DNA from: a virus | IMG/VR virus record: IMGVR_UViG_3300013137_002967 | Span: 1 to 64,000 of that record | Direction: 5' to 3' (one strand) | DNA: 64,000 nt | Shown here: positions 6,174 through 64,000 of the stretch, piece by piece | Layout of the letters: the number at the start of each line of letters is the position of its first letter | Numbering within the stretch: the first letter of the stretch is position 1 | Made by a program: the position numbers and the translations under genes | The notes under the pieces: generated by a model | Databases searched by the model: none | What the model was told of the DNA's origin: nothing | The model's input: only the letters and a program-made list of their open reading frames with translations

Positions 6174-6177
6174 TTTG

Positions 6178-6250
6178 TACCTCCACCCAGATTCGAACTG
6201 GGATATCAAGAGCCTAAATCTTGCGCGACTGCCGATTACGCCATGGAGGC
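6178..6250 (-). tRNA. tRNA with Leu anticodon UAG, short variable loop
   Basis: Cloverleaf on the leftward strand: 7-bp acceptor stem, 3-bp D stem, anticodon stem CAAGA/TCTTG with loop TTTAGGC (anticodon UAG, codon CUA), T arm CCCAG/CTGGG with TTCGAAT, discriminator A. The D arm resembles bacterial tRNA-Leu, but the variable region is only four bases, whereas bacterial tRNA-Leu normally has a long variable arm. CCA is not encoded. Confidence 0.85.
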
Positions 6251-6255
6251 TTATG

Positions 6256-6329
6256 TGCTCCTACCCAGATTCGAACTGGGACTATTCTACTTTTGAGATA
6301 GACGACTCTGCCAATTGGCCTATAGGAGC
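6256..6329 (-). tRNA. tRNA with Leu anticodon CAA, short variable loop
   Basis: Perfect 7-bp acceptor stem (GCTCCTA/TAGGAGC), anticodon stem TCTAT/GTAGA, loop CTCAAAA identical to that of typical tRNA-Leu(CAA) reading UUG, canonical T arm, discriminator A. The variable loop is five bases, so it is class I in shape. Lies five bases from the next tRNA gene. Confidence 0.85.
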
Positions 6330-6338
6330 ATTATTATG

Positions 6339-6412
6339 TAGACCACATCAGATTCGAACTGATACTTTAACGATCTTAAATCGTTTGCCGCTGCCAATTG
6401 GGCTAGTGGTCC
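6339..6412 (-). tRNA. tRNA with Leu anticodon UAA, short variable loop
   Basis: Acceptor GGACCAC/GTGGTCT, D stem GCC/GGC, anticodon stem AACGA/TCGTT with loop TTTAAGA (UAA, codon UUA), T arm ATCAG/CTGAT with TTCGAAT, discriminator A. Five-base variable loop. Duplicates the decoding of the class II tRNA-Leu(UAA) at 6502-6586. Confidence 0.85.
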
Positions 6413-6418
6413 ATTTTG

Positions 6419-6494
6419 TACCCTTGGTGGGAATCGAACCCACAGAAAGTCTTGGTTCTTAGCCAAGCGGATATGCCTATTCTCCTACAAGGGC
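6419..6494 (-). tRNA. tRNA with Leu anticodon AAG
   Basis: Acceptor GCCCTTG/CAAGGGT, D stem GGA/TCC, anticodon stem CTTGG/CCAAG with loop CTAAGAA (AAG, codon CUU), T arm GTGGG/CCCAC with TTCGATT, discriminator A. A34 is rare in bacterial tRNAs for leucine. The variable region is seven bases, between class I and class II. Confidence 0.75.
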
Positions 6495-6501
6495 ATTTTT
6501 G

Positions 6502-6586
6502 TAGTCCTGGAGAGACTCGAACTCTCAATCCTCAAAGGGCATTAGTTCTTAAGACTAACGTGTATCGCCATTTCCACCACAGGACC
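6502..6586 (-). tRNA. tRNA-Leu(UAA), canonical class II
   Basis: 85 bases with acceptor GGTCCTG/CAGGACT, class II D arm, anticodon stem TTAGT/ACTAA with loop CTTAAGA, a ~15-base variable arm, T arm GAGAG/CTCTC with TTCGAGT, discriminator A. First tRNA of the array in the direction of transcription and the only one with normal tRNA-Leu architecture. Confidence 0.9.
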
Positions 6587-16324: not shown

Positions 16325-18169
16325 TTATTCTTTCTTAAAAAAATATTTATCTAAAATTTTATTCAGTGTTTCTTCTTTAAATGGTTTAGTAATATAGTCT
16401 ATACAACCAGACTTCATTGCTAAATCTTTTTCTGTACTAAATGAATATGCGCTTTGTGCTACTATTGGAACATTTTTTATTTCTAAAATTTCAGGCACCA
16501 CTTCATACCCTAGTTTATCTGGTAATCTCATATCCATTAGTACCAATTTGATTTTATCTTTATAGAGCTTGAATTTATAAATTGCTTGTTTAGCATTTTC
16601 AGCATGAACGATAGAAATCTTTTTATTGGATAATATAACATTTAAATACAGAAATATATCCTCATTATCTTCAACAACTAGAACTAAATTTTCATCTTTT
16701 TGCATTTCTTCTAATGAAATTTTAATAGGCTTATATGGAATAGTAAAATAAAATGTCGAACCTTCTTCCATTTTAGATTCTACCCAGATTTTTCCACCCA
16801 TCATTTCTACGTGAGATTTAGAGATAGAAAGTCCAAGACCTGTACCTCCATATTTTTTAGATAAGCCTTCTTCTGCTTGACGAAATCTTTCAAAAATAAC
16901 TTCTAATTTATCTTCTGAAATACCAATACCTGAATCGCTAACATAAAATTGTAAGAATCCATCAACTAAGTCATATCCAATCTGTATATTTCCTTTGTGT
17001 GTAAATTTAATCGCATTGGTCATTAGATTAGTTAATATTTGTCTTAATTTGGACTCATCTGTTATAATAGTAGATTCATCATCAGTAAGAGTGGTATACA
17101 CAAATAAATTTTTATTATTATTAGGTGGCTTATTTAATGATACTTCTCTAATTACATCATTAACGCACACTTCAGAATTATATAATTCTACTTGTCCTAT
17201 TTCTATCTTTGATATATCTAAAACATCATTAATTATATCTAGTAAATGATTACCACTTGAATTAATTATAGATGTATATTTATTTTTTTCGGATTCAGTC
17301 AACTCTTTATTCATTATGAAATGAGAAAATCCAATTAGACTATTAAGAGGCGTTCTAATTTCGTGACTCATATTAGCGAGAAATGTAGTTTTTAGTTTAT
17401 CAGATTTTTCAGCCTTTTCTTTTGCATCTATTAATTCTTTTTCGACTTTTTTTCTTTCTGTTATATCAATACCGAACGAAACGAGTCCGATTACGTCAGA
17501 TTTACTATTATAGAGATTATTACTTTGCCATAATATGTCTCTAGTACCTCCATTTTTTGTAAAAATCGGATTTTCAAAAATTTTATCTTTACTATTATCT
17601 TTTAATTGACGATTAAATTCTTCCCACACATAAGGTATTTTATCAATAGGTGTCATAGTATCAAACCAGTTTTTACCTATTATTTCATCTTTAGTGTAGC
17701 CCGTTGTCTTTTCTGCAGCCTTATTAAAAATATTAACTATACCTTTTGTATCAACGCCTATTACAATCGCATTTGATGTTTCAATTAAATTTTCAGAGAA
17801 ATTTTTGGCATCCAAAAGTTCTGTTTCTATAATTTTTTTATCTGTGATATCTCTTATTATACCCATCACATAGGGTTTATTTTTAAGTATAAGAGTTGAA
17901 AGTGATATTAAGCCGGTGATTATATCATTTTTACCGTAAAATGATGTTTCATAATTTTCTATAAATTCTTTATCTTTAAAAAACTCTGATATTATTTCTA
18001 TATCTTTGTTATTAACCCAAAAATCTTCTGTTTTTAATTCATTTTTATCAGTAATAATACGTTTAAACGTCTCATTTGTTTCAATGATCTGTCCTTTTTC
18101 ATCAGCAATATAAATTGCTTCCGGTAAACTATTGAATAGGATTTTATACTTAATTTCAAGATTCTCCAC
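16325..18169 (-). CDS. soluble hybrid histidine kinase (PAS-PAS-HisKA-HATPase-REC)
   Basis: 614 residues with no membrane segment. Two PAS domains (about 8-115 and 125-240), HisKA with His269 in MSHEIRTPLNS, a HATPase domain with DSGIGIS and GGTGLGLS motifs, and a C-terminal receiver (about 488-612) with the phospho-accepting Asp in VLMDMRLP and Lys in TKPF. It should sense a cytoplasmic ligand or redox state and signal by phosphorelay. No partner regulator is adjacent; the 166-residue gene just upstream may be a partner. Very unusual cargo for a phage. Confidence 0.9.
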   Translation of the reverse strand: MENLEIKYKILFNSLPEAIYIADEKGQIIETNETFKRIITDKNELKTEDFWVNNKDIEIISEFFKDKEFIENYETSFYGKNDIITGLISLSTLILKNKPYVMGIIRDITDKKIIETELLDAKNFSENLIETSNAIVIGVDTKGIVNIFNKAAEKTTGYTKDEIIGKNWFDTMTPIDKIPYVWEEFNRQLKDNSKDKIFENPIFTKNGGTRDILWQSNNLYNSKSDVIGLVSFGIDITERKKVEKELIDAKEKAEKSDKLKTTFLANMSHEIRTPLNSLIGFSHFIMNKELTESEKNKYTSIINSSGNHLLDIINDVLDISKIEIGQVELYNSEVCVNDVIREVSLNKPPNNNKNLFVYTTLTDDESTIITDESKLRQILTNLMTNAIKFTHKGNIQIGYDLVDGFLQFYVSDSGIGISEDKLEVIFERFRQAEEGLSKKYGGTGLGLSISKSHVEMMGGKIWVESKMEEGSTFYFTIPYKPIKISLEEMQKDENLVLVVEDNEDIFLYLNVILSNKKISIVHAENAKQAIYKFKLYKDKIKLVLMDMRLPDKLGYEVVPEILEIKNVPIVAQSAYSFSTEKDLAMKSGCIDYITKPFKEETLNKILDKYFFKKE

Positions 18170-22272: not shown

Positions 22273-23449
22273 GAAATGTAAAGAAGAAATTTCCCAATAT
22301 AAAACAATATCTGAGTTTAAAAATAAATGGATATATAAAGTTATTTTAAAAAATGAATGGAAAAATTTACTAGATAATTTTTATAAAATAAAAATTGGAG
22401 GTTGGTCTTACGAAGAATGTAAAAATATATCTTCCAAATATTTAAAATGTTCAGATTTGTGCAAAGATTATCCTATGATTTACAAAATTATAAAAAATAA
22501 TAAGTGGGAAGAATTGTTGGAACATATGACATTTAAATATTGGACATATGATAGATGTTTGAAAGAATCATTAAAATATGAATTCAAGTCTGATTTTAAA
22601 TCAAAATCTTCAACTGCATATAACTCAATAATAAAAAATAAATGGATTGATATCATCGAGAATATGAGTAATAAAATTATGTATTGGACATATGATAAAT
22701 GTAAAGATTATTCTAAAGAGTTTGATAATATCAAAGATTATACAAAAAAATATCCAGGAGCAATTGATTCAATTTATAAACATAAATGGTTCGATATAAT
22801 TGAACCTATGAGAAAAGTTAAACCACGTGGCTATTGGACATATGAGAAATGTAAAGAGGTATCTGAAAAATACTATAATATTTCTGATTTTAGAAAAAAG
22901 AATGGTGGTGCTTATTATAATATAAGCAAGAATAATTGGTTTGAATTATTTAATCATATGAAAAAATTACCAACATTTTATAAAAGATTAATTTATGTTT
23001 ATGAATTTTCAGATAAATCATGTTATATTGGATTAACTTGTAATATAAATAGACGAAATAAGCAACACCTGAAAGATATTAAAAGTTCTGTTTATAGATA
23101 TATAAATAACAAAAAAATATATCCAATTTTGATTATAAAAAGTGATTATATTGATATTAAAGATGCTGTGAATTTGGAAAAAACTGAATTGATGTTATAT
23201 AAAAACAATGGTTGGAATATATTAAACAAAAATAAAACAGGTTCAATAGGTATGACCAAACTTTATTGGACCAAAGATAAATGTTTATCTGAAATACATA
23301 AATATAAAACACATTCTGAATTTAGAAAAAAATCACCTGGCGCATATAACTCAGCATTTAAAAATGGTTGGCTATATGAGTTACTAGAGAATAATATTGA
23401 TGGCTATATTAAAAGGACAAAAAACAATTCTACTCAGAAATCATATTAA
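22250..23449 (+). CDS. GIY-YIG endonuclease embedded in WTYEKCK repeats
   Basis: 399 residues. A GIY-YIG core (LIYVYEFSDKSCYIGLT, about residues 244-260) is flanked by five ~45-residue repeats on the N side and one on the C side, each beginning W[ST][YK][ED][KR]C and containing a K-P-GAYNS-like turn. The repeats are probably DNA-binding modules that set a long recognition site. Free-standing; converges on and overlaps the 3' end of the ligase gene by 20 bases. Confidence 0.85.
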   Translation: MKKKWTYEKCKEEISQYKTISEFKNKWIYKVILKNEWKNLLDNFYKIKIGGWSYEECKNISSKYLKCSDLCKDYPMIYKIIKNNKWEELLEHMTFKYWTYDRCLKESLKYEFKSDFKSKSSTAYNSIIKNKWIDIIENMSNKIMYWTYDKCKDYSKEFDNIKDYTKKYPGAIDSIYKHKWFDIIEPMRKVKPRGYWTYEKCKEVSEKYYNISDFRKKNGGAYYNISKNNWFELFNHMKKLPTFYKRLIYVYEFSDKSCYIGLTCNINRRNKQHLKDIKSSVYRYINNKKIYPILIIKSDYIDIKDAVNLEKTELMLYKNNGWNILNKNKTGSIGMTKLYWTKDKCLSEIHKYKTHSEFRKKSPGAYNSAFKNGWLYELLENNIDGYIKRTKNNSTQKSY

Positions 23450-25448
23450 TAAAATCTTCCACAGATATTATTTTAATACCTAGTGATTTAGCTTTTATCA
23501 TTTTTGATGAATTACTATCAATATCTTTACATACTAAATGTGTTGTGTTTTTTGTAATGGAACTACCTACTTGTGCACCATTTTCAATTAAGAATTTTTC
23601 TTCATTTTTCATTCTAATTCCCGTAAAAACAAAAATCAATCCTGTCAAATCAATTTTTTTCATGTTATTATCATTATTTACAATTACTTCACTTTTAATT
23701 TTTTCTTCATTTGAAATTTTAATATTCAATTCTGACATAAAATTACTGAAACAAACAATACCATCAACAAAAGCTTCTGATGTTTTAGTTGACATTCCTT
23801 TGATTGTATTCAGTTTTTCTACAATTTCTCTGCGAAAATCCAAGTAGGAAAGAATATGAGAAATTGAAGCTAAATCCATATTTTCAATCGCTTTCTTGAA
23901 TGTTCCAAAATGAACACCATCACTAGTATTTTTAATACCATCAACAATCATTTTAAGTTTTCTTGAACCAATATTCTCAAAACAACCAGATGCATGTCCA
24001 ATAACATCAAAAGTTGCACTTTTAATTTTATTCTCAAATTCATTCAAAATTTTGGTTGCGGAAAGATTACCCATACCTTCAAGTTTCTGAATATCATTAG
24101 CACTCATTGATAAGATTTTACCAACGGTATCATAACCTGCATCATAGAATTTCTTAATTGTTTTCTCTGCAAATCCTTCAATATTAAACCGAACAAAGAA
24201 GAATGCTAATTTTTTGAAAGAAATTTCACAACAATCATCATTATTACAAACCAGATCAACTTCGTTTTCATTCCATTCAAGTGTTGAACCGCAACTAGGA
24301 CAAGTAGTTGGAAGTTCCAATTTACCAGATTTTACAACACCAATAATCTTCGGTATAACCCCACCTGATCGGATCACTCTTAAGATAGAACCTTCACCAA
24401 TTTGGTTATCTGCAATAAATTTAGCATTATAACCAGTTACTCTTGAAATAGTAACACCTTCAACATTAAAAGGTTCAAGAAGAACAACAGGTTTAATAGC
24501 TTTTGTTTTACTCAAATTCCATTCAATACCTACAAATGCTGGTTCGTTAATTTCAGACCAATCTGGATTTTTAAATGCTCTTGCATAGGCTGGATTGTTA
24601 TTTCTTTCACGACCTAGACTTTTTCTCAATTCTTTATCATCAATATCAAGAACAAGTCCATCAATATCATATTCTTTACCCCATTCAGAAAACAAATTAT
24701 TCAGTTCTTCAACATTTAAACGATCTGCACGGAAGATTTTATAAGGAACTTTTCCAAAATTATCCGAAATGAAATCAAGCTGTTCAGATTTATTTTTTGT
24801 AAAATCTTCACTTGCAAAACCATAACGAACATGATTTGCATATCTCAAATCATCAGAAATTGTATCTGAATTTTTAAGTCCAGCAATCATATTACGAGCA
24901 TTCTTAAACGCTTCTCCACTTTCTCTATAAAAAGTGCGACTTGCAAAAACTGATTTGGGAATAATCATTTCACCGATGGTGAAAATCTGGACTTTTTTGG
25001 CTTTATCACCAAGTTTTTTATAATGCTCATGAACCGTTTCACCTTCAATACCATCACCTCTTGACCAGGCAAGACCATTATATTCATCTTTGAGAATAGA
25101 AATACCATCATACTTTGCAGTACAGACAAGAACGGTTGAAAGTGGTAATCCTTTATTAATAAGCCACTTATGAATTTCTTCAATTGAACTTTCTTTATCC
25201 AGAGAGAACATTGGATATTTAAGAAGTTCTTTTCTATTTGAATTAACTTCAACTACTTCAATTACACCTGATTTGAAGAGTTCATTATTCGGATCAACAA
25301 ACCTAAAAGTTTCGATCAATTTATCGTATTCTTTATCTGAAATCAAAGGATTACCATCACGATATGCCTTATTGAATTTCTTAATTTCATTAGAAACAAT
25401 TTCCAATTCGTTATTGTTTAGTGCAGTATAGATTTCTGAAATCGTCAT
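23430..25448 (-). CDS. ligA: NAD-dependent DNA ligase
   Basis: 672 residues, full length. Adenylation lysine Lys112 in AKYDGIS, nucleotidyltransferase motifs (GLVLDIDD; RNNNPAYARAFK), OB fold, four-Cys zinc finger (CPSCG ... CNNDDC), helix-hairpin-helix region, and a C-terminal BRCT domain. Joins nicks using NAD+ as adenylate donor, unlike the ATP-dependent ligases of T4, which ties phage replication directly to the NAD pool. Preceded by a TAnnTTTG promoter. Confidence 0.96.
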   Translation of the reverse strand: MTISEIYTALNNNELEIVSNEIKKFNKAYRDGNPLISDKEYDKLIETFRFVDPNNELFKSGVIEVVEVNSNRKELLKYPMFSLDKESSIEEIHKWLINKGLPLSTVLVCTAKYDGISILKDEYNGLAWSRGDGIEGETVHEHYKKLGDKAKKVQIFTIGEMIIPKSVFASRTFYRESGEAFKNARNMIAGLKNSDTISDDLRYANHVRYGFASEDFTKNKSEQLDFISDNFGKVPYKIFRADRLNVEELNNLFSEWGKEYDIDGLVLDIDDKELRKSLGRERNNNPAYARAFKNPDWSEINEPAFVGIEWNLSKTKAIKPVVLLEPFNVEGVTISRVTGYNAKFIADNQIGEGSILRVIRSGGVIPKIIGVVKSGKLELPTTCPSCGSTLEWNENEVDLVCNNDDCCEISFKKLAFFFVRFNIEGFAEKTIKKFYDAGYDTVGKILSMSANDIQKLEGMGNLSATKILNEFENKIKSATFDVIGHASGCFENIGSRKLKMIVDGIKNTSDGVHFGTFKKAIENMDLASISHILSYLDFRREIVEKLNTIKGMSTKTSEAFVDGIVCFSNFMSELNIKISNEEKIKSEVIVNNDNNMKKIDLTGLIFVFTGIRMKNEEKFLIENGAQVGSSITKNTTHLVCKDIDSNSSKMIKAKSLGIKIISVEDFINMISE

Positions 25449-26970: not shown

Positions 26971-27858
26971 TTATAAAATAATATTATTGGTGAATCCTGT
27001 TGTTAAATTTTCACCATCAAATACTAAGTTAATATTTATATCATACGGATTATAAGTATATTTATAATACACTCTGATAACATTATTTAAACTTTCAGGT
27101 ATATAGACATAGTTATTACAACGGCAATAATTTTCGTAGGTCCATACTTTTGTTAAATTGAATCTATCGCTAACCAAATCTAAAGAATTGAAATCTATTA
27201 AATTTTCTTTACAATAATCATTCACTGGCATTAAAGAAACTAAGCCAACATTTTGTATATTGATTGAATCAGCAAATTCTAAATATTTATATACTTCTTC
27301 TTTAGAATCTATATAACATTTGGTTAGATTACAAGTTAAATTTATAAGATTTTTATCTTGGCTACTAGATTGAATTTCTTTTATTTCTTCACTTGAAATA
27401 GAATTAAAGCCTAAAATTTGATTGTTAATTTCATCTATATAATGATGTCTGCTTAATGAAATACTATCAATTTCGTTAAAAACTTCTTCATCAGCTTTAA
27501 GTTTATTTAAATTTAATCCATTAGAGTTTAAAACAAAAGCTGTGTCTGGATAATATTCTCTAGTTAAAAGAATATTTTTTCTAAATTGTTCATAATTTAG
27601 TGTTGGTTCACCACCTGTAAAAGCAAATTTTTTAACTCTTACTTTATCTTTGACTTCATTTAGAATTGATAGATATTTATCATAATTAAAAGGAGATGCA
27701 TCATTATAAAATTCACAAAATTTACATTTTGCATTACAACCTTTAGAACGAACATAAATGTTTACATAGGGATCAATTGGTTCTGGCTCATAATTGTAAA
27801 ATTTGCAATAATGAGATCTTACTGGAATTTGTTTTCCAAATAATTCAATATAATTCAT
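26971..27858 (-). CDS. radical SAM enzyme next to GCGS-repeat protein
   Basis: 295 residues. The 4Fe-4S motif CNAKCKFC sits near residues 40-47, followed by the SAM-binding GGEP (AFTGGEPTL). A C-terminal CRC pair could add a second metal site, but no clear SPASM domain is visible. It begins 11 bases after the gene for a Cys-repeat peptide, so it may modify that protein (sulfur-to-carbon cross-link or other RiPP-type change); a QueE/activase-like role is the alternative. Enzyme class is sure, substrate is not. Confidence 0.85.
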   Translation of the reverse strand: MNYIELFGKQIPVRSHYCKFYNYEPEPIDPYVNIYVRSKGCNAKCKFCEFYNDASPFNYDKYLSILNEVKDKVRVKKFAFTGGEPTLNYEQFRKNILLTREYYPDTAFVLNSNGLNLNKLKADEEVFNEIDSISLSRHHYIDEINNQILGFNSISSEEIKEIQSSSQDKNLINLTCNLTKCYIDSKEEVYKYLEFADSINIQNVGLVSLMPVNDYCKENLIDFNSLDLVSDRFNLTKVWTYENYCRCNNYVYIPESLNNVIRVYYKYTYNPYDININLVFDGENLTTGFTNNIIL

Positions 27859-27869
27859 ATATTAAAAGA

Positions 27870-28253
27870 TTAACAACCTGTATTAGAACTACTACCGCAA
27901 CCTGAATAACTAGATGATCTTTTGACTGGTTTGCTAGGTGTACTTCCACATCCAACATTCCTACTTACACTACCACAACCAAAATCTATATTATCTTTAC
28001 TTGAAAGAAAAGATGGAAGTTTCGGTTTACTAGTTTTTTCAACAGCTATATCATTCTCCTTAAAGAATTTATTAACAACCTTAGTTGAAACTTCACCTTG
28101 CTCTTTAAGGAATTCAACTTGTTCTTTGAATTTAACTTTAGCTATTTTTTTAGATGTATATTTTTTTAAATAGAAAGAATAGAGATTAGTTAAAAGTGCT
28201 ATCTCATTACTACTACTTTCATTTATTTTCATAAATTCTCCAAAATTTTCCAT
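27870..28253 (-). CDS. tagged protein with GCGS repeats, possible modified peptide precursor
   Basis: 127 residues: tag-like N-terminus MENFGEFMKINESS (INE fits the cleavage rule), a helical Lys-rich middle (about 15-85), then a Ser/Gly/Cys-rich tail with FGCGS, VGCGS, SGCGS and a final TGC. The layout leader, helix, Cys repeat core resembles radical-SAM-modified peptide precursors, and a radical SAM gene follows 11 bases downstream. It could instead be a metal-binding virion protein. Own TTTAATATATA promoter. Confidence 0.6.
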   Translation of the reverse strand: MENFGEFMKINESSSNEIALLTNLYSFYLKKYTSKKIAKVKFKEQVEFLKEQGEVSTKVVNKFFKENDIAVEKTSKPKLPSFLSSKDNIDFGCGSVSRNVGCGSTPSKPVKRSSSYSGCGSSSNTGC

Positions 28254-28267
28254 ATGAGTTTTTTCTT

Positions 28268-28280
28268 TTATATATTAAAT
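28268..28280 (-). promoter_or_regulatory. TTTAATATATA-type promoter
   Basis: Leftward ATTTAATATATAA, 15 bases before the GCGS-repeat gene and overlapping the 3' end of nadR. Confidence 0.45.
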
Positions 28281-29246
28281 ATTAAAAGTAGTTTTTACAA
28301 TATTAATTGCTTTATTCGTTCTTTCATTCCAATCTGAACCTGAAACTCTATGACAGATTATATTATTTTTCTTAAAGAAATCTAAATAATAATTTTGTAA
28401 TCTATCACGTTCTTCTTTTGGTAATCTTGTACCATCTTGAATATAAGGTGCATCATTATCCAAGAATAAATACAAATCAAATTTATTTGTATCTTCAATC
28501 CATTTATCAAAAGTTATATCCCTATTAAATAGAAATTTCGCATAAATTTTTGTAGTAATTGCATCTGTATCACTAAACAGAATTTGATTTGAAGTTTGTC
28601 TTTTTTCACTTATATCTTTTGCGTGTAAATAAGCAATATCAAATAAATTTTGAAACTTACAATCCATTGTTTTATTTACAACAACTCTACCCCATTCTTG
28701 TACATAATTAGTTATAAAATATTTTGCTAATCTTTTTGTTAGAGTTGATTTTCCTGTTGATTCAGTACCAATTATGGCGACTTTCTTAACAAAATAAGGT
28801 TTTACATAATCCGGTAGATAAATCCAATATTTGAACGGATTTTCACGAATTAAAGTACCAGAAACTGGCATTATATCTCTATCAATATTATATGGAATAT
28901 GTTCAATACCAAGGATTTCAGCGACATAATCACCATATTTTTCTGATGAAAATATAATATCAAAATCTAATATAGATTTCAGATATTCAGCCCAAACTTT
29001 TGATACTTCCCAATCAGATTCGGAAGAAGATGGTAAATCAACATCTGTAAATTTCAATTCAACATTTTCATATTTTTCTACAAGTTTAGATAACCACCAC
29101 AACCTTGTTACACCTGGAATATCTTCATCTTTATTTACACAAAGTAAAACATATAATTTATCACATCTTTTAGATGCGAAATCTATTAATGCGTTGTGAC
29201 CCAGATGTAAAGGAAAAAATTTACCTAATACTAGTCCTGTTTTCAT
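28275..29246 (-). CDS. nadR: NadR-type NMN adenylyltransferase / nicotinamide riboside kinase
   Basis: 323 residues. Nucleotidyltransferase domain with HLGH (His14, His17) and the SGTLIR segment (129-134), then a P-loop kinase domain GTESTGKST (160-168) with the expected WGR and D-x-D features. It converts imported nicotinamide riboside to NMN and NMN to NAD+. No helix-turn-helix repressor domain, as in Bacteroidota NadR. Fourth gene of the TonB receptor-PnuC operon; start overlaps the previous gene by 26 bases. Confidence 0.93.
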   Translation of the reverse strand: MKTGLVLGKFFPLHLGHNALIDFASKRCDKLYVLLCVNKDEDIPGVTRLWWLSKLVEKYENVELKFTDVDLPSSSESDWEVSKVWAEYLKSILDFDIIFSSEKYGDYVAEILGIEHIPYNIDRDIMPVSGTLIRENPFKYWIYLPDYVKPYFVKKVAIIGTESTGKSTLTKRLAKYFITNYVQEWGRVVVNKTMDCKFQNLFDIAYLHAKDISEKRQTSNQILFSDTDAITTKIYAKFLFNRDITFDKWIEDTNKFDLYLFLDNDAPYIQDGTRLPKEERDRLQNYYLDFFKKNNIICHRVSGSDWNERTNKAINIVKTTFNI

Positions 29247-29505
29247 TTTTTATACTTTCTATGTATTCTTTACCAGCAGGATCTCCAAAAACAACATTAT
29301 TTAATGCTATCCTAAATTCATCTACTAATAAATCAACAACATTTTGTTTGAATTCATTATGTTCAATACCAAAATATTCGTAATTATCAATACTTTCTAA
29401 CCAATGATTGGTTGAAAATTTATATTGATAATGACAAATAAATTCTTTTAAATCTGTTCTTTCGATGTTGAAAGATAGTTTTTTTTTAATTTCAATTTCT
29501 TTCAT
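29221..29505 (-). CDS. small protein within the NAD-uptake operon (94 aa)
   Basis: No family recognised. Acidic with aromatic residues and the segment FGDPAGKEYIESIKNENR at its end. Overlaps pnuC by 4 bases and nadR by 26, so it is firmly in the operon; a role in regulating or stabilising the pathway is only positional inference. Confidence 0.6.
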   Translation of the reverse strand: MKEIEIKKKLSFNIERTDLKEFICHYQYKFSTNHWLESIDNYEYFGIEHNEFKQNVVDLLVDEFRIALNNVVFGDPAGKEYIESIKNENRTSIR

Positions 29506-30047
29506 ATTATTTTACTCCATTTTTTTAAGGCTACCAAATCCATAATTATAAATATAATTGCTTGTCCAGCAATTAGATAAAATCCTAAAGAAGAATATAA
29601 AATTAGAGATATTATATTTACCGACATCCAGACATACCAACTTTCAATTTTCTTTAATGATAATAATATTGTTCCAATGATTGAGAGAACAAAAATTGAC
29701 ATGTCTAAATATGGATAAGGATCTGATACATTAGGTATGTAATTTATAAGTGAGCCACATGTTATTATAGAAACTATTGATATTAAAAATATAGATATTC
29801 TTTTTAGCCATGTTAAGTTACTGATTTGTTTTATATCTTCCTTATTCCATTTTAACCATCCATTTATGCTAACAAATATTAAAATTATTTGAAGTGCGGC
29901 ATTGGCATAGGTTTGAGTATTAAAATAGATAATTCCAAATAGAATACTAGATACAATACCAACAATCCATGTCCATTTGTTTACTTTCATAGCAAAGTAA
30001 ACAGAAAGAAAATATGCTATAACACCGAATATTTCAAGATATTTCAT
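29502..30047 (-). CDS. pnuC: PnuC-type nicotinamide riboside transporter
   Basis: 181 residues with about seven membrane segments. Typical PnuC features: an early VNKWTWIVGIVSSILFGIIY, a WLKWN segment after the third helix, and WYVWMSVNIISLILYSS later. Moves nicotinamide riboside across the inner membrane, where NadR phosphorylates it. ATGA overlap with the TonB receptor gene. Confidence 0.92.
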   Translation of the reverse strand: MKYLEIFGVIAYFLSVYFAMKVNKWTWIVGIVSSILFGIIYFNTQTYANAALQIILIFVSINGWLKWNKEDIKQISNLTWLKRISIFLISIVSIITCGSLINYIPNVSDPYPYLDMSIFVLSIIGTILLSLKKIESWYVWMSVNIISLILYSSLGFYLIAGQAIIFIIMDLVALKKWSKII

Positions 30048-32065
30048 AAATTAAATTTAAGATTCACAAAATAATTAGTGCCTGATTGTCTAAAATATAA
30101 AGGTGTTCCATCAAATGCCATTAATCCATTAGTGTATATGTCTTTATTTGTGATATTGTTAATGAATAAATTTAATTCTATTCTTCTGGTTAATAACATT
30201 TTAAAATTTAGATTTAGAATAAAGAAATCATCTAATTTATATTGATTTGTGAGATCGATATAGGATTCGCTTTGATATCTACTGTTTAAACAAATAGTAA
30301 CTCTTTTAAATTTATAAAGAATATCTTGATTAATAATTATATTTGGTGTTAGAACTGGATTAAATTCATTTTCACCTACTTTTATTTTATTATAAGAAAA
30401 AGATGAATTATTGATTAATTCTAATTTTCCAATCTTATATTTTATATCAGATTCCAATCCAGATCTGAAACTATTATCTACATTGGTATGTAAGAGAAGT
30501 CCTGTTGGTCCAAAATACCCATTCAAAGTGATTTCATCTTTGAATTTCATGTAATAATAATTAATATTTAAAATTAAATTAGTTCCTAAATATCTAATAC
30601 CTAACTCATTATCTAATACAGATTCTGTTTTCATATTATTATAAATGCCTATTCCTAAAGAATCAGCATATAAATTATCCATTCCCATAAAAATATCATT
30701 TCTAGTTGGCTCACGATGAGTTTGACCTATACTATAGTAGAATATTAATTTATTAAAACTTTTTTCAATACCAATGGTTGGATTAAAGAAATTCCAATTA
30801 AATTGATTTATATTCACATCACCTTTATATGTAAAATTTGAAAATCTATATTGATAATCCTGGAATAAATTAAATCCTTTAAAATTATAAATCATTTTAA
30901 AGAATGCTGTAGCTTCACTTCTATAACCGGTATTAAAATATTCATAATCATAATTTATAGAATTTAATGAATGATACTTATTTATATCTATCCAAGTTTG
31001 TCCATTATGTTTTCTTGAATATGTTTGAGCATTAATTCCACTATAAATAGTTACATTATTATAACGATAGATATAATTTGTATAAAAACCAAGTGTATTA
31101 GACTTTAAATTATATTTATCAATACTACCAAAATTATTATCTGAAACATGTGACCAGTTGATTGGGTCATATTGATAAGTGTAACTACCATCTAAATAAT
31201 TATAATAAATAGCTGAGTTTAGATTAGATTTACTATTGATTTGATAATTATGGTGAAATTGTAAACGAAATTGTGTAAAAACATCGTGTTCATTGTCAGT
31301 ACAAGAATTATATTTAGGATTTAATTTTAATTGTTCTTTTGTAGAACCGAGCCAGGATAATTCGTTCTTTTGATTACCAATAAATGCAATTAATTTGAAT
31401 GTATTTTTCTTATATTTATTCTGAGTGGCAAAGAAAAATGATTTTGATTTATTTCCTGAATGGTCTCTATAGCCATCTGATGATATTGAGCTTAAACGAC
31501 CATAAAAATGATTTGTGCCTAATCCAATTGAATATTTTTTTGAATTGAAAGAACCTAAGCCTGCATCTAATTCAATACTTCTTCTTGGATCTAATGATTC
31601 AAAATTTAAACTACCTGCAAAATTAGCAATTCCATTTTTTGACATACCTACACCTCGTTGTATTTGAATCATCTTAATAGATTGTAGAAAATCTGGGTAA
31701 TTAGAAAAATAGCAACCTTGATCCTCAGGTTCATTTAAAGGAACACCATTTAATGTCATGTTAATTCGTGTCTGATCAATACCTCTTAATCTTAGATAAG
31801 AGTAACCCCAACTACTACCTGCATCTGAGTAAGAGGTTATAGATGATGTATTGGCTAGAATTTGTGATGGTTCTTGACCAAAATTTTTATAAGATAAATC
31901 TTTTTCTGTTAGATTTTTAAATGTAATTGGAATATTATTAGTTGCTTGATATGGTAAACTAGCAACTACTTCAACTTGTTTAATTTTAATAGTGTCTTTA
32001 TCTAGATTTTGAGAATATAAATTTAATCCCAGAATAGAGATAAACAATAGTAAATACCTTTTCAT
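30044..32065 (-). CDS. TonB-dependent outer-membrane receptor
   Basis: 673 residues, complete. Signal peptide (MKRYLLLFISILGLNLYSQ), TonB box-like IKQVEVVAS, plug domain (YLRLRGIDQTRINMTLNGVPLNEPEDQG, with the LRLRG and NGVPLN hallmarks), then a 22-strand-type barrel ending in a hydrophobic C-terminus (NLKFNL). Co-operonic with pnuC and nadR, so the likely ligand is a pyridine nucleotide precursor. A receptor gene of this kind is extraordinary in a phage. Host-type promoter just upstream. Confidence 0.93.
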   Translation of the reverse strand: MKRYLLLFISILGLNLYSQNLDKDTIKIKQVEVVASLPYQATNNIPITFKNLTEKDLSYKNFGQEPSQILANTSSITSYSDAGSSWGYSYLRLRGIDQTRINMTLNGVPLNEPEDQGCYFSNYPDFLQSIKMIQIQRGVGMSKNGIANFAGSLNFESLDPRRSIELDAGLGSFNSKKYSIGLGTNHFYGRLSSISSDGYRDHSGNKSKSFFFATQNKYKKNTFKLIAFIGNQKNELSWLGSTKEQLKLNPKYNSCTDNEHDVFTQFRLQFHHNYQINSKSNLNSAIYYNYLDGSYTYQYDPINWSHVSDNNFGSIDKYNLKSNTLGFYTNYIYRYNNVTIYSGINAQTYSRKHNGQTWIDINKYHSLNSINYDYEYFNTGYRSEATAFFKMIYNFKGFNLFQDYQYRFSNFTYKGDVNINQFNWNFFNPTIGIEKSFNKLIFYYSIGQTHREPTRNDIFMGMDNLYADSLGIGIYNNMKTESVLDNELGIRYLGTNLILNINYYYMKFKDEITLNGYFGPTGLLLHTNVDNSFRSGLESDIKYKIGKLELINNSSFSYNKIKVGENEFNPVLTPNIIINQDILYKFKRVTICLNSRYQSESYIDLTNQYKLDDFFILNLNFKMLLTRRIELNLFINNITNKDIYTNGLMAFDGTPLYFRQSGTNYFVNLKFNL

Positions 32066-32088: not shown

Positions 32089-32096
32089 CAAATTTA
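32089..32096 (-). promoter_or_regulatory. TAnnTTTG -7 element of the NAD-uptake operon
   Basis: Leftward TAAATTTG, 24 bases before the receptor start codon. Confidence 0.5.
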
Positions 32097-36491: not shown

Positions 36492-37667
36492 TTAATACCT
36501 TTCATATAAATCATATCTTTCAACACCAGTTGAAACTATTGTAATTTTAATTCCAACTTCTTTTTCAATAAATAGTATAAATTCTTCTAACGGTACTTTA
36601 TTATCTTTTGTGTTCCAGCCTTTGAATTTTTTATAGATAGGTTTTGGATCTTTAATATAGATAGTATTATCAAAATTGTAGTATGAATACTCTTCTGATT
36701 CATCTAACGCATTATATCCTATGCAAATTTTTACTTCATCAAAGTCATTCAAAACATCTGCTTTTGTCATTATAAGTTCCGTCACACCATTTATCATACA
36801 GGCGTATTTCAGGGCTGGAATATCTAACCAGCCACATCTTCTAGCTCTACCTGTTGTAGCACCATACTCACTACCTATGTCACGAATTTTTTCTCCAATT
36901 TTACCTTTAATTTCAGTTGCAAAAGGTCCATTACCTACTCTAGTCATGTAAGCCTTGAAAACACCATATACTTTTCTGATATTTTGATGAGAAACACCAA
37001 GTCCGGTCATAACTCCACCAATAGTAGAATTTGAACTACTTACATATGGATAAGTACCAAAATCAATATCTAGAAGTGTTCCTTGTGCACCTTCAGCAAG
37101 AATTTCCAAATTCTTATCATTTAGAAAATACTCTACACTAGAAATTTTTAAGGATGTTAAATATTCAAGAGATTCTTTAAAATCTTTTATATCGTTACTG
37201 ATACCTAGTGATTCTATATAATCTTCATTAATATCACAAATTCTGAGACCTGTTCTTTCAACTTTACTTTTATAACAAGGACCTATTCCTTTACCGGTTG
37301 TTCCTATTTTTAGCTTTTTTTCTTTTTCTTTATCTTCAAATATATGATAAGGTGTAACTAAATGTGCATACTTTGATATATAAAGATTACTCTTAACATC
37401 TATACCGTCTTTTTCTAAATTTTCAATTTCTTCTTTCAAAGTAATTGGATTAACTACAACACCATTACCTATAATACATTTCTTACCATAGAAAATACCA
37501 GATGGTATCAGATGCAATACATAATTTTTATTATTATGAAATATGGAATGTCCAGCATTTGCACCACCATTAAATCTAGCTACCGAATCATAATTAGAGG
37601 CAATGTAGTCTATTATTTTTCCTTTTCCTTCATCGCCAAATTGAATACCCATTAAAACATCTATCAT
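36492..37667 (-). CDS. purA: adenylosuccinate synthetase
   Basis: 391 residues, about 35 fewer than cellular enzymes. GIQFGDEGKGK with catalytic Asp12 and His40 in NAGHSI, the IMP-loop TTGKGIGPCYKSK with VERTGLR, and a GVFKAYMTRVGNGPF segment. Converts IMP, Asp and GTP to adenylosuccinate on the way to AMP. Phage PurZ enzymes (making 2-aminoadenine) lack the catalytic Asp, which is kept here, so ordinary PurA is favoured. It would boost adenine supply for an AT-rich genome. Confidence 0.93.
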   Translation of the reverse strand: MIDVLMGIQFGDEGKGKIIDYIASNYDSVARFNGGANAGHSIFHNNKNYVLHLIPSGIFYGKKCIIGNGVVVNPITLKEEIENLEKDGIDVKSNLYISKYAHLVTPYHIFEDKEKEKKLKIGTTGKGIGPCYKSKVERTGLRICDINEDYIESLGISNDIKDFKESLEYLTSLKISSVEYFLNDKNLEILAEGAQGTLLDIDFGTYPYVSSSNSTIGGVMTGLGVSHQNIRKVYGVFKAYMTRVGNGPFATEIKGKIGEKIRDIGSEYGATTGRARRCGWLDIPALKYACMINGVTELIMTKADVLNDFDEVKICIGYNALDESEEYSYYNFDNTIYIKDPKPIYKKFKGWNTKDNKVPLEEFILFIEKEVGIKITIVSTGVERYDLYERY

Positions 37668-46015: not shown

Positions 46016-46420
46016 TTCTTTTTTGAATTTTTTAATTCTCTTAATATCCTCTTTCATTTTATCATTAAAATAATGACGTAAAAAAGTTATATCATTATCT
46101 GTAAAAGAATAATAATCCTTTATTAATCTAATATCATCATTACTGATATCAGATTTTTCTTTTGTTTTTTGCTTAGATTGCCACCACCATTGAGGAACGC
46201 CATTAATTGTTTTATAAAATAATTGATACCACACATCTATAGCAGATGCCTTATTAATATTCTTATTATTAAAAAATTGTGCTTGTTTTAGATACTTGAA
46301 AGCAAATTTCCTATTAAGTACGAAGAAATTGTTTTCTTTTTCCTCATCTGATACAAATTTATATTTACTCTTATCTTTAAATATAATATTTGCTAATGTT
46401 ATAAAATCTACTCTTGCCAT
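46013..46420 (-). CDS. T4 gp62-like clamp-loader small subunit (tentative)
   Basis: 135 residues. The pattern FFVLNRKFAFKYLKQAQFFN followed by IDVWYQLFYKTI and a W-rich W-W-Q-S-K segment recalls clamp-loader small subunits of T4-like and cyanobacterial phages (a V-NR-L-S ... W/KW-K layout). That protein works with gp44 to load the sliding clamp. Basic C-terminal tail. Overlaps the hybrid kinase gene by 13 bases. The call rests on motif memory and should be treated as tentative. Confidence 0.5.
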   Translation of the reverse strand: MARVDFITLANIIFKDKSKYKFVSDEEKENNFFVLNRKFAFKYLKQAQFFNNKNINKASAIDVWYQLFYKTINGVPQWWWQSKQKTKEKSDISNDDIRLIKDYYSFTDNDITFLRHYFNDKMKEDIKRIKKFKKE

Positions 46421-47895
46421 ATTTCATTTAATATATGTAGTAATTTTTCTTTATTTATAGGTCTTTTAAGATAATAATCTAAATATTTAGACTGATTTTT
46501 AGACATTGTTCTAGAAATAATTATACAATTATTAATTTTTTTTAGATGTTTAATCAGGTTATTAAAATCCTTATCAATAAGATTCAAATCTAAAAATATT
46601 AGATCAATTTTATCTTTTTGTTCTTTATAAATTCTGATTGCATCTTCAGAATTATAAGTTGAAACAATATTAATTTGTAAAGATTTTAGAAACATACCTA
46701 ATAGTGAGTAATTAACAGGAAGTTCATCAACAATTAAAACCGTTTTATTAATAAAGCTTATTCTATTTCTATCCTTTGAGTTTTCAGATTCTTGTTTTTC
46801 TTCTAATGATAATTTAATAAAAAAAGTTGTTCCTTTACCAACAGTGGATTCCAGATAGATTTCTCCACCTAAAAGATCAACAATTCTTTTAGATATTGAT
46901 AATCCTAAACCGACACCTTTATATTTTTTTGTACTGGAACTATCATATTGCCAAAATCTATCAAATACATACTTAAATTTATTTTCCTCTATACCTATAC
47001 CGGTATCTTCAATTTTAAATATTATAGATTGCTCAGATGTACTAAATGAGATTTTAATGTAACCTCTATCTGTAAATTTAATAGAGTTACTTATAATATT
47101 ATAAAGAATTTGCTTCAATCTTAGATAATCTGATATAATCTTTTTATCATCATTTTTAATAAATTCCAATTTAACAAAATCTAGATTTTTCTTATAGTTT
47201 ACATCTTCAAATATATCATACAATTCATCAAATAGATCATGTATCGAAAAATTTTCATATAATATATCAAATTCATTACTTTCTAATCTCGAATAATCCA
47301 ATATATTATTTAATAATTCTTCTAAGTGTTTAGCGTTAGAATTAATAGATTTTAAAAATCTTTCAAGATGATCCATATTTTGTCCACTTAATAGTATGTC
47401 TGAGAAACCTATAATTGCATTCATAGGTGTTTTTAGTTCGTGTGAAACATTGGATAAGAATGTGGATTTTATGGAATTACTTTCATTCAATTGTTGTTTT
47501 AATTGTTCTATTTCGTTTTCAATTTTTTTATTTTTTGTTATATCGTAAAAATTCAATATTAAATATTTAATATTAGATTGTTCATCTAATACAGGAGTAA
47601 TCATCATTTTAAAAAATCTATTATAGTTTTTGATTTCACCTATAACTTCCTTACCTGTGAACATAGATTCTAACATCAATTTTCTAACTTCCTCGTAATC
47701 TTCTTTATTTAGTAATTCAGATAATTTTTTATTTCTAAAATCTTCTTTTAGATATTTATCATGTTCAGAATTATAATATAATATTGTACCATCTATCTGT
47801 ACAACAACAGTATTAATTTTCACATCAGCATCCTTAAGAAATTTGTTACTAACATTTAACAACAAATCTGTACCGTTAATATTAATTATTTCCAT
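46408..47895 (-). CDS. soluble hybrid histidine kinase (PAS-HisKA-HATPase-REC)
   Basis: 495 residues, no membrane segment. One PAS domain (about 20-120), coiled linker, HisKA with His152 in VSHELKTPMNA, HATPase with DTGIGIE and GVGLGLS motifs, and a diverged receiver with Asp in IFLDLNL and Lys in YLKRPI but VDELPVN in place of the usual acidic pair. Lies between thymidine kinase and the gp62-like gene with overlaps of 14 and 13 bases, so it is expressed with replication genes. Distinct from the 614-residue kinase. Confidence 0.88.
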   Translation of the reverse strand: MEIININGTDLLLNVSNKFLKDADVKINTVVVQIDGTILYYNSEHDKYLKEDFRNKKLSELLNKEDYEEVRKLMLESMFTGKEVIGEIKNYNRFFKMMITPVLDEQSNIKYLILNFYDITKNKKIENEIEQLKQQLNESNSIKSTFLSNVSHELKTPMNAIIGFSDILLSGQNMDHLERFLKSINSNAKHLEELLNNILDYSRLESNEFDILYENFSIHDLFDELYDIFEDVNYKKNLDFVKLEFIKNDDKKIISDYLRLKQILYNIISNSIKFTDRGYIKISFSTSEQSIIFKIEDTGIGIEENKFKYVFDRFWQYDSSSTKKYKGVGLGLSISKRIVDLLGGEIYLESTVGKGTTFFIKLSLEEKQESENSKDRNRISFINKTVLIVDELPVNYSLLGMFLKSLQINIVSTYNSEDAIRIYKEQKDKIDLIFLDLNLIDKDFNNLIKHLKKINNCIIISRTMSKNQSKYLDYYLKRPINKEKLLHILNEIWQE

Positions 47896-58660: not shown

Positions 58661-61600
58661 TTATTTAGCCGGTGTCTCGCTTAATTCGGTTTCGATTCCT
58701 TTATCTTTTGAAGTCAATTTCACAATTTTAACATCATTAGAAGTTTTATCGTATCTTATTGATATTCTATCACCAACTTTAAGTTCTTCATTAATAATTG
58801 CATCTGTGATTTTATCTTCAATATATTTCTGAATTGCTCTTTTTAATGGTCTTGCACCATAATCGGGATCGTAACCTTTTTCAAATAAAAAGTCTTTTAG
58901 AGAGGTTGTGATTGTAATTTCATATCCAATATCTTTCAACCTCTGAATAGTAGATTTAACTTCAACATCTACGATGGTACCAATATTATCTTTTGTTAAA
59001 GAATTAAACATTATAACTTCGTCAATACGATTCATAAACTCAGGATTGAAGATTTTTTTCAATTCTTTTTCAATAACACTATTTTTATCAGACTGAGAAA
59101 CATCAGTCTTGAAACCAATACCAGTTCCAAAATCTTTAAGTTTTCTGGATCCGGCATTTGATGTCATAATAATAATAGTGTTTTTAAAGTCAACTCTACG
59201 ACCATAACTATCAGTTAGTACACCATCATCAAGAAGCTGAAGAAGAATGTTATAAACGTCAGGATGTGCTTTCTCAATTTCATCAAGAAGGATAATTGAA
59301 TAAGGTTTACGTCTTACTGCTTCAGTTAATTCACCACCATCTTCATAACCAACGTATCCAGGAGGTGCTCCAACTAACCTAGAAACTGTATGTTTCTCCA
59401 TATATTCACTCATATCAATTCTAATCATTGAATCTTCTGATCCAAAAAGTTCCTTCGCAAGAACTTTGGCAAGGTATGTGTTATGAGTCACAGTAAAATC
59501 ACCTAATAAATATAAATGGTTTCCATCAATTTCGAATCCATAATAGTCATCAACTCCAATATATTCCACATCAAATCCTGTCAACATTACGTTCTTTTTT
59601 TGTTTTCTTGCTGTAGATTGCTTTTTACTTAAAATAATATTAAGATCACTTAAATCTCCACATATATTAATAGAGTAATATATATCTCCGTTTACTATTT
59701 TTGGTGTTTTTGACGCTCTATATCCAAGACTTCTAGATAAAAATAGAATTTGATCCGCTAATTTATCATATTTGGTTGATATCAAATAACAATTATGATG
59801 ATGATACCCATCACTATCAATAAGTCCAGCTAAAACTGCTTTTCTAACAGAAGAATCATTATATAAGTAATCATCAGGAATAAATTTGCTATTAGTAATA
59901 TCTTTCTCTTTATATTTCTTCATTAAATTATATTCTCTGAAAGTTGTCATTAAATTATTATTATGATACTCTCCTTTAATATTACCCGTTAAAACGTATG
60001 TATTGGATTTATTGTTTTCTAATTCGTCAACTCTAACATTAAGATTCCAATCTCTAGCTATTTTGTATATATAATCTACTACTTCAGAATCTGCTGTAGT
60101 TATCCCACAATTATGACTATTACCATCACCTAACCATAATCCCATAAAATATGGATCTATTTTAACCATTTTTGATGGAAACTCAACATTAGTTCTCCAT
60201 AATTTATGAATGTGCTTGAACCATTTACTCTTTTCTAGATATTCATTTAGTGGTATATTTACCGTTTCATATGAGCCTGTTTTTTTAAGTGAGAGAATAT
60301 GCGGATTATTACAAACGAATGAATCTCCACCGTTTAATGGATTTATTCGATACATCTTATCTTTACCTCTTGCTAAAGAAATCACTGTTCTTGGTGTAGA
60401 ATCATCACCCATTAATAAATCTCCTGGTAATACATCTTCAACATTTTTAATACTACCATCAAACATTAATATTTTTGTTCCTTTACCGTGACATTTCCCC
60501 ACACCTGTAGGACCCAAGAAAATAAATGAACCAACAGGTCTTTTTGGATCTTTAATACCGATCCTTGCTCTTTTAACTGCTCGTACAAGTTTATCTACAG
60601 CATCATCCTGTCCGATAACAATACCTTTAACTTTACTAGACATAACTTTTAATTTAGTATTTTCATCAGATGATACATTATCTACTGGAATTTTTGTCAT
60701 TAATGCGATAACCTCTGTCACATCATCTTTGGATACAATATCTCTAACTTTAGAAATTTCAGCTTTCCAGATTTCTTTTTCTGAATTTAACTGTTTTGTC
60801 AATTCCTTTTCAAGATCTCTTTTCTCAGCCGCCATTTCAAATTTTTGCTCATTTACATATGATTCTTTCTCGGTTTTTATTTTTTTAATTTTCTTTTCAA
60901 GATCCTGAATTTTTTTAGGTGTTTCAATGTTCTTATTAACATGAACTTTTGAACCTGCCTCATCCATAGCGTCGATTGCCTTATCTGGTAGATGTTTTTC
61001 TGACATATATTTATCAGTTAATTCTACACAATATTTCAGTGCTTCATCGGTATAGGTAACATTATGATAATCTTCATATCTCTCTTTTAGATTTTTAAGA
61101 ATTTCTAATGTTTCAGATTTTGAATTGGGATCTACATCTACCTTCTGAAATCTACGTTCAAGAGCTGCGTCTTTTTCAATATATTTACGATACTCTTCAA
61201 GTGTTGTCGCACCAATACACCTAAAAAATCCTCTAGATAATGCTGGTTTCAACATATTAGCAGCATCAAGAGAACCCTGAGCAGATCCTGCACCAATAAT
61301 TGTGTGAATTTCATCAATAAATAGAATAATGTTATGATTTTCTTCCATTTCTTTGATGATTCCTCTCATTCTTTGTTCAAATTCACCACGATATTTAGTA
61401 CCAGCAACCAAAGAACCCATATCAAGTGTGATAATTCTCTTATCTTTTAGATTTTCTGGTACTTTACCTTCAACAATTAATTGTGCAATACCTTCAACAA
61501 TTGCAGATTTACCTACACCTGGTTCACCTACCAAAACTGGATTATTCTTTTTTCTACGCGAAAGAATTTGTGAAATTCTTTTTATCTCAGTTTTTCTACC

Positions 61601-62760: not shown

Positions 62761-64000
62761 CTATTTATAAAGTTTATTTTTCTTTTCTTCGTGTTCCAAC
62801 TCTTTAATATATTCTTCTGTTTCTTTAACTAAACCAGAATAAAATAGACTATCAGGTCTTTTACTTAGTTCCACTTTATATTTTTCTAATGATTTTTCAA
62901 AAATAGAAATAGTATCGTTTAGATAATTGAAGAAATGAATATATTTCATAATTTCGACCATTTTTGGATCACCAATTGCCTTACTTGGAGTATCTGACAA
63001 TTTGACAACTGGAATACCATCAGCCATTGTCATTTTAATGACCATATTCATCGGATTACTTTTTGCATTGGGATTAGTCTTTTTCATAAAATCAGAAGTG
63101 AAATTAGTACCAATACCAAAAGAACAACGAATTTTATCTTTACAATATTCTTTCAATTTAATTGTAGTTTCTATATCTAGTGCATTGCTAAATACAATAA
63201 GTTTACTCATAGGATCAATTTTCATCTTTTTATAATGATCAACGATCTTATCAGTAAACACATATGGATCACCTGAATCATGCCTTACACCATCCCATAA
63301 TTTGGCTTTTTCTAAAGAAAAATCTCGAAGGAATGTATCAATACCAAAAGTATCAGGAAGCATAGTTCCTAATGTGCCTTTATAGGTTTTAGTCCACCTT
63401 TCCATAAATATCTTATTTGGATGATTCAGACTTTCTAGAGCAGCAACCGCACCAATTGCTTCGTGTGCGCAAGTTCCGAGCGCTTTAACATCATATTTCA
63501 TAGCTAAATAGCAATTGCTAGTACCAGCAAATCCGTTGTATTTTTTCATTTCTGAAACTACAATTTCCTGGGTTTCAAAATTGCGTCTACGACGAGTACC
63601 AAAATCTGTAAAAATACATTCAGCTTCACTTAAAGTTTTTGCTTTTGAATTTGCAAGAATTTCCTGACCTTTCATACTCCAATCAGTATCAATCATTCTA
63701 AAATAAACTTCTGAAATGATAGCCATTAGTGGTACCTCCCAAAGTATAGTTTCTCTCCATTTACCTTCGATTGAAATTTGTAACTCATTTTCAGAGTTGA
63801 GAACAATTTTCACTTGTTTAGAATTGAACCTATAAGCTGCTAAATATTGACGATATGCTACAGGAAGAAAATAAAGATTTTCTTTCATCCAATCATATTC
63901 TTCATCAGTAAGTTTTAATTTTGACATCAATTTAACTTGATGTTTGATTTCCTTTACTGCTTCAGCAGTAAATTTCATTGATTTATCACGATTACTAAAC
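62761..64000 (-). CDS. pncB: nicotinate phosphoribosyltransferase, partial at window edge
   Basis: The open frame continues past ATG 63978 to the window edge (FSNRDKSMKFTAEAV), and comparison with PncB shows about 45 N-terminal residues lie outside, so this is the C-terminal ~413 residues. GTCAHE with active-site His, WDGVRHDSGDP, FSNALD and FGIGTNFTSDF are the PncB hallmarks. Converts nicotinate and PRPP to NaMN, the entry to NAD synthesis. It would feed host NadD/NadE. Sits upstream of clpS in the same direction. Confidence 0.9.
   Translation of the reverse strand, partial: FSNRDKSMKFTAEAVKEIKHQVKLMSKLKLTDEEYDWMKENLYFLPVAYRQYLAAYRFNSKQVKIVLNSENELQISIEGKWRETILWEVPLMAIISEVYFRMIDTDWSMKGQEILANSKAKTLSEAECIFTDFGTRRRRNFETQEIVVSEMKKYNGFAGTSNCYLAMKYDVKALGTCAHEAIGAVAALESLNHPNKIFMERWTKTYKGTLGTMLPDTFGIDTFLRDFSLEKAKLWDGVRHDSGDPYVFTDKIVDHYKKMKIDPMSKLIVFSNALDIETTIKLKEYCKDKIRCSFGIGTNFTSDFMKKTNPNAKSNPMNMVIKMTMADGIPVVKLSDTPSKAIGDPKMVEIMKYIHFFNYLNDTISIFEKSLEKYKVELSKRPDSLFYSGLVKETEEYIKELEHEEKKNKLYK

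Follow-up and report, generated by a model that had tools for sequence, protein, structure and literature searches.

A TBDR-PnuC-NadR operon in a viral record

The window analyzed here is a stretch of 64,000 nucleotides, positions 1 to 64,000 of the IMG/VR virus record IMGVR_UViG_3300013137_002967, which comprises 86,112 bases. On its minus strand, positions 28275-32065 carry genes for a TonB-dependent receptor (TBDR), the transporter PnuC, a 94-aa protein, and NadR, which overlap by 4, 4, and 26 bases in the open reading frame (ORF) list. The original prediction had read this set as an operon for import and salvage of precursors of nicotinamide adenine dinucleotide (NAD), and the coordinates, overlaps, gene identities (Pfam, PHROG, and NCBIfam), and Bacteroidota-type promoter that it described agree with what we found:

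30044..32065, minus strand: TBDR, 673 aa, with signal sequence, plug, and barrel (Pfam PF00593/PF07715; AlphaFold2, AF2; Foldseek)
29502..30047, minus strand: PnuC inner-membrane transporter, 181 aa, with a 4-base overlap with the TBDR gene (PF04973, 7e-39)
29221..29505, minus strand: 94-aa orphan protein, sharing 4 bases with PnuC and 26 with NadR (no Pfam or PHROG match)
28275..29246, minus strand: NadR, consisting of nicotinamide mononucleotide (NMN) adenylyltransferase and ribosylnicotinamide kinase, with no DNA-binding domain (PHROG 3462, 5e-74; motifs; solved relatives)
32089..32096, minus strand: Bacteroidota-type −7 box TAAATTTG, 23 nt ahead of the TBDR ATG (motif enrichment)

The receptor has the architecture of a TonB-dependent transporter, i.e., a signal sequence, an N-terminal plug (Pfam, 7e-8), and a C-terminal barrel of about 22 strands (6e-14). 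The AF2 model (pLDDT 88.4, pTM 0.87) is a predicted complete plug-and-barrel, and its closest solved fold in Foldseek is PqqU (TMq 0.80), with FhuA and FecA also retrieved. Among the phage copies of the receptor, conservation is highest in the plug (mean 0.62), followed by the strands (0.48) and the loops and turns (0.43). The plug also contains a motif, PLNEPEDQG-YFSNYPD, that is common to NadR-linked bacterial receptors and differs from that of thiamin-type receptors. For pairs of phage copies, dN/dS was 0.03-0.36 wherever computable, and TBDR, PnuC, and NadR are all under purifying selection. Because the plug is conserved and carries the NadR-type motif, the model is confident, and dN/dS is low, the TBDR appears to be a working transporter.

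PnuC scored 72.9 bits against TIGR01528 (NCBIfam cutoff, 42.45), and its profile matched the solved nicotinamide riboside transporter 4qtn (6e-31). Both its neighborhood and its tree tie it to NadR rather than to thiamin pyrophosphokinase (TPK): viral PnuCs of the window's kind fall with NadR-linked PnuCs and apart from the thiamin type, with weak support at the deep branches. NadR matched Pfam AAA_28 (1e-25) and solved NadR structures, and its catalytic motifs are intact; for example, GKFFPLHLGH and VSGTLIR conform to the GxFxPxHxGH and SGTxIR patterns, and the kinase Walker A (GTESTGKST) and QDGTR are present as well. It is a divergent member of the family that scored 215.5 bits against TIGR01526, below the cutoff of 341.15, and its name therefore rests on the motifs, the PHROG match, and the structural relatives.

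Boxes of the −7 type precede 14 of the 106 ORFs in the record, compared to a mean of 2.2 and a maximum of 8 in 500 shuffles. The −33 element at the TBDR promoter is weak. Since the flanking gaps are short (21 bases between NadR and the next gene, and 42 bases upstream of TBDR), a longer transcript through the operon is possible. Directly downstream of NadR is a RiPP-like pair (ribosomally synthesized and post-translationally modified peptide), which consists of a radical-SAM protein and a 127-aa protein with a GCGS-type repeat end (window 26971-28253, minus strand); relatives of both proteins lie near the operon at locus L006, and a radical-SAM relative does so at L005.

Other NAD-related genes are located elsewhere in the record, each with a −7 box of its own. 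The first two had been named in the original prediction, and TIGR01514 and the family scan, respectively, agree with it:

62761..64000, minus strand (the ORF ends at record position 64101): NAPRT of the PncB type, an associated salvage gene (TIGR01514, 426 bits; cutoff, 270)
23430..25448, minus strand: LigA, a NAD-dependent DNA ligase and thus a NAD consumer (family scan)
Record 66247-66930, beyond the window end: PncA nicotinamidase

NAD can be rebuilt by two arms: in one, NadR converts nicotinamide riboside to NMN and then NAD; in the other, PncA and NAPRT convert nicotinamide to nicotinate and then to nicotinate mononucleotide (NaMN).

Recurrence of the gene set in megaphages

Homologues of 42 of the 115 record proteins, including a 1,411-aa protein without a PHROG match, were found in the complete 735-kb phage LR756501, a degree of gene sharing that places the record among Bacteroidota-infecting megaphages. 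The GC content is even along the record (23-31%), and the window contains one PHROG match to a virion structural protein. A search of the 86-kb record for terminase and sheath (PF03237/PF04984) gave no match, the sheath family being too divergent to serve as a hallmark. The record is best seen, on these sequence comparisons, as a fragment of a megaphage related to LR756501. That the operon is phage-borne, as the original prediction held, is also borne out by complete phage genomes with terminases that carry it.

A tblastn search of 50,697 phage records retrieved a relative of the TBDR in 24: LR756501 and LR756503 (735 kb), LR745206 (634 kb), LR756502 (642 kb), all 15 of the Lak Prevotella phages, and five short fragments of fecal origin. 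An alignment-based scan of IMG/VR added 37 TBDR loci; single-sequence IMG/VR scans with TBDR and with PnuC yielded nothing usable. In total, 42 viral loci were examined, five from phage genomes and 37 from IMG/VR, and their receptors are 29-49% identical to the window TBDR. NadR lies within 10 kb of the receptor at 39 of the 42 loci and PnuC at 34; at two of the three loci without NadR (L043 and L047), the TBDR itself is only partial and lies at a contig end or close to it. No TPK hit was found at any of the 42 loci, and relatives of the 94-aa protein were found neither at the other loci nor in LR756501. Because the same three-gene set recurs in distant phage lineages, its linkage goes beyond chance. 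One record labelled bacteriophage (L009, MT838261) is probably bacterial, with 50% GC and an operon of TBDR, PnuT, and TPK; this and other short fecal "phage" records were left out of the phage counts.

Every record searched has at most one TBDR, including the complete genomes of 540-735 kb. The Pfam barrel model gave a single match in 23 of 29 records and never more, and the TBDRs of the other six were seen only by a custom profile. Terminase was found in each of the five complete genomes searched, as well as in five IMG/VR contigs. The viral structure library BFVD holds one clear TBDR, a marine phage protein labelled SusC. The expectation that a phage TBDR is very rare thus holds across phage records at large; it is not an isolated oddity, however, as it recurs in Bacteroidota megaphages.

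In LR756501, NAPRT, NadE, TBDR, a small protein, PnuC, NadR, and PncA form an island within about 9 kb. Approximately 40 kb from this island, the phage encodes a TonB with a transmembrane segment, a proline-rich stretch, and TonB_C (470226-470459, minus strand; L137:20220-20960). A TonB_C match was also found in the record of locus L013 (G003); ExbB and ExbD were not found in any of the 21 phage records searched.

The same operon is present on Bacteroidota chromosomes, e.g., in Zobellia and Chitinophaga, with receptors 40-44% identical, and a full-length NadR is found at 28 of 80 bacterial loci. These chromosomes are the likely source of the phage operon, in line with the Bacteroidota affinity first proposed. 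In the TBDR tree (a quick tree with SH-aLRT support only), several phage clades are interleaved with bacterial ones, and the starred branches force at least four label changes, which suggests several transfers into phages. The window groups with LR756501 in both the TBDR tree (98, starred) and the NadR tree (97/92, starred). The Lak/rumen lineage has the gene order TBDR-NadR-PnuC, and the branch of its NadR is very long (100/100), with an unresolved sister. The different gene order and the long-branch NadR suggest that the set was assembled independently in this lineage.

Other genes in the window are also shared with LR756501. Two histidine-kinase-type proteins (16325-18169, with PAS and response-regulator domains, and 46408-47895, both on the minus strand) have homologues there, and an adenylosuccinate synthetase (36492-37667, minus strand) is 66% identical to the LR756501 copy. 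One window protein matches a PHROG of 2-amino-type adenylosuccinate synthetases; the possibility of modified DNA is worth checking. The window also contains five tandem tRNA-Leu genes (6177-6586, minus strand) and a ClpA/B-like ATPase (58661-62206, minus strand) that is apparently interrupted by an intein, given the Hom_end_hint and Hom_end matches between its AAA parts.

Proposed function and alternative readings

The gene identities, the linkage to NadR and PnuC across viral loci, and the intact NadR motifs speak for import and salvage, and we consider it likely that the operon is a NAD-precursor supply line belonging to a megaphage that infects Bacteroidota. It would probably be transcribed early in infection by the host RNA polymerase from the Bacteroidota-type promoter. 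The TBDR would then be inserted in the outer membrane and energized by host ExbBD/TonB, with LR756501 supplying a TonB of its own, and would bring in a pyridine precursor; the most likely candidate is nicotinamide riboside itself or a molecule that is trimmed to yield it. PnuC would move nicotinamide riboside across the inner membrane, and NadR would phosphorylate it, a trapping step, and then adenylate the resulting NMN to NAD. PncA and NAPRT would provide the second arm, from nicotinamide via nicotinate to NaMN, with host or phage NadD/NadE finishing the route. The purpose would be to maintain the NAD supply of the infected cell, for the NAD-dependent ligase and for replicating a very large genome over a long time; outlasting NAD-depleting immunity is a further possible purpose. 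Among nicotinamide riboside, NMN, NAD, and nicotinamide, the first is the likely substrate of the TBDR. The original prediction took nicotinamide riboside uptake by the chromosomal set as known; we found no description of it in the literature searched, and we infer it from PnuC and NadR.

Several points weigh against this reading. The expression of the TBDR, its membrane insertion, its substrate, and the benefit to the phage are all deduced from the genes. The gene set was read from an 86-kb fragment without a terminase and may therefore be incomplete. The window PnuC forms a long branch in its tree, and an Rfam search of the operon gave no hit to a NAD riboswitch or to any other family. Moreover, one clade of six phages (L014, L020, L021, L022, L025, and L036) has TBDR and NadR and, in the stretches read, no PnuC; NAPRT is often present in this clade, as are NadE and PncA in some members, and no candidate for a replacement transporter was found beside TBDR/NadR among the transmembrane-rich ORFs of these stretches. 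In this clade, the substrate may differ, or the inner-membrane step may be missing or of another kind, or PnuC may lie elsewhere.

The alternative that survives best keeps the mechanism and changes the purpose: the operon would serve mainly in counter-defense, replenishing NAD with material from the surroundings once host NADase immunity (Thoeris, TIR/Sir2 effectors) has drained it. In this it would resemble the NARP pathways of phages, except that its source is external. Phage salvage genes are widely read in this way (PMC7824862; PMC9503650), and several independent acquisitions fit an arms race. However, no defense-linked gene ties the operon to immunity, and an ordinary demand for NAD (LigA, a large genome) explains it equally well. 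A counter-defense role is plausible; that it is the main one seems to us possible but somewhat doubtful.

It is unlikely that the TBDR imports another substrate (thiamin, NAD or NMN, nicotinamide, or a sugar) while PnuC and NadR serve a different source. This possibility draws on the sister receptor clade in PnuT-TPK loci (L009), on the published SusC reading of a megaphage TBDR (PMC9723777), and on the larger ligands that TBDRs often take, by which NAD or NMN itself could be imported. Against it stands the linkage to NadR at 39 of 42 loci across distant lineages. A thiamin-type substrate in particular was judged unlikely, as no viral locus gave a TPK hit and both the plug motif and the PnuC tree are of the NadR-linked type.

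We regard it as very unlikely that the receptor transports nothing and acts instead as a decoy on the surface or in superinfection exclusion. Phages commonly use TBDRs, FhuA among them, as receptors, as seen in solved structures with phage proteins, but the plug, which a decoy does not need, is the most conserved part of the protein (0.62 vs 0.43 in loops and turns), the pairing with PnuC/NadR is constant, and dN/dS is low. For the same reasons of plug conservation and purifying selection on all three genes, the suggestion that the receptor also alters the host surface found no support. Bacterial contamination or a chimeric assembly is hardly credible: the window does hold bacterial-looking genes (histidine kinases, LemA, RF-1) and the record lacks a terminase, but the proteins shared with LR756501, the same operon in complete phage genomes with terminases, and the even base composition all argue otherwise.

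Comparison with known systems

Phage NAD salvage is already known, and it has so far been viewed as recycling inside the cell, with an inner-membrane transporter at most; neither the step across the outer membrane nor the fact that it recurs in megaphages is described in the literature searched. A TBDR with PnuC is not mentioned in papers about Lak phages, about huge phages, or about viral NAD systems (PMC6784885; PMC8346664; PMC7162821; PMC7824862; PMC12363816; PMC9503650), and the full texts searched, which were mostly outside subscription journals and without supplementary tables, contained no account of the three genes together in a phage. With this operon, it appears that phages carry nutrient uptake further outward, across the outer membrane, a step that is limiting for Bacteroidota, which depend more on TBDRs than on general porins. 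Several of the largest phages known have the set, and because their lineages differ in gene order and in a divergent NadR, it looks like a selected solution. Tentatively, and as a fair way short of an expectation, Bacteroidota megaphages may have repeatedly captured or re-assembled a full outside-to-NAD supply line, made up of receptor, inner-membrane transporter, trapping kinase/adenylyltransferase, and, in one lineage, their own TonB, by which the infected cell could draw on outside precursors and outlast NAD-depleting immunity. Two predictions follow: infected cells take up nicotinamide riboside, and an external precursor alters the outcome of a NAD-depleting defense.

One close counterpart is the TBDR-PnuC-NadR operon of Bacteroidota chromosomes (Zobellia, Chitinophaga, and Niastella), which shares the gene order, the plug motif, and 40-44% receptor identity. 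It differs in that the phage copies form separate clades, the window copy has the additional 94-aa gene, and some phage copies have NAPRT, PncA, or NadE nearby. The TBDR-PnuT-TPK operon has the same logic of receptor, Pnu transporter, and trapping kinase, and a related receptor (L009), but its kinase and plug motif differ and it was found beside no viral copy. PqqU/YncD (9c4o, 6v81), the closest solved fold, imports a small redox cofactor; it is 16% identical to the window TBDR and has another ligand.

Among phages, NadR and PnuC are present in Vibrio phage KVP40, Caulobacter phage J4, Agrobacterium phage Atu_ph07, and a Vibrio phage, in each case with no TBDR in the stretches read. In the jumbo phages KVP40, J4, and Atu_ph07, PnuC and the bifunctional NadR are likewise adjacent or near each other. 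The hosts of these three phages are Pseudomonadota, which have general porins. NARP1 and NARP2 also rebuild NAD with phage-encoded enzymes; NARP1 starts intracellularly, from the products of NADases (PMC12774641). There is no import step in these pathways, and their link to defense is established. Finally, the TBDR of the megaphage Mar_Mega_1 was read as a SusC for carbohydrate uptake, and the link to PnuC/NadR was not made (PMC9723777). In the megaphage LR745206, the TBDR is directly followed by PnuC and NadR, and the gene set described here thus offers an alternative reading for a published megaphage TBDR taken as a sugar transporter.

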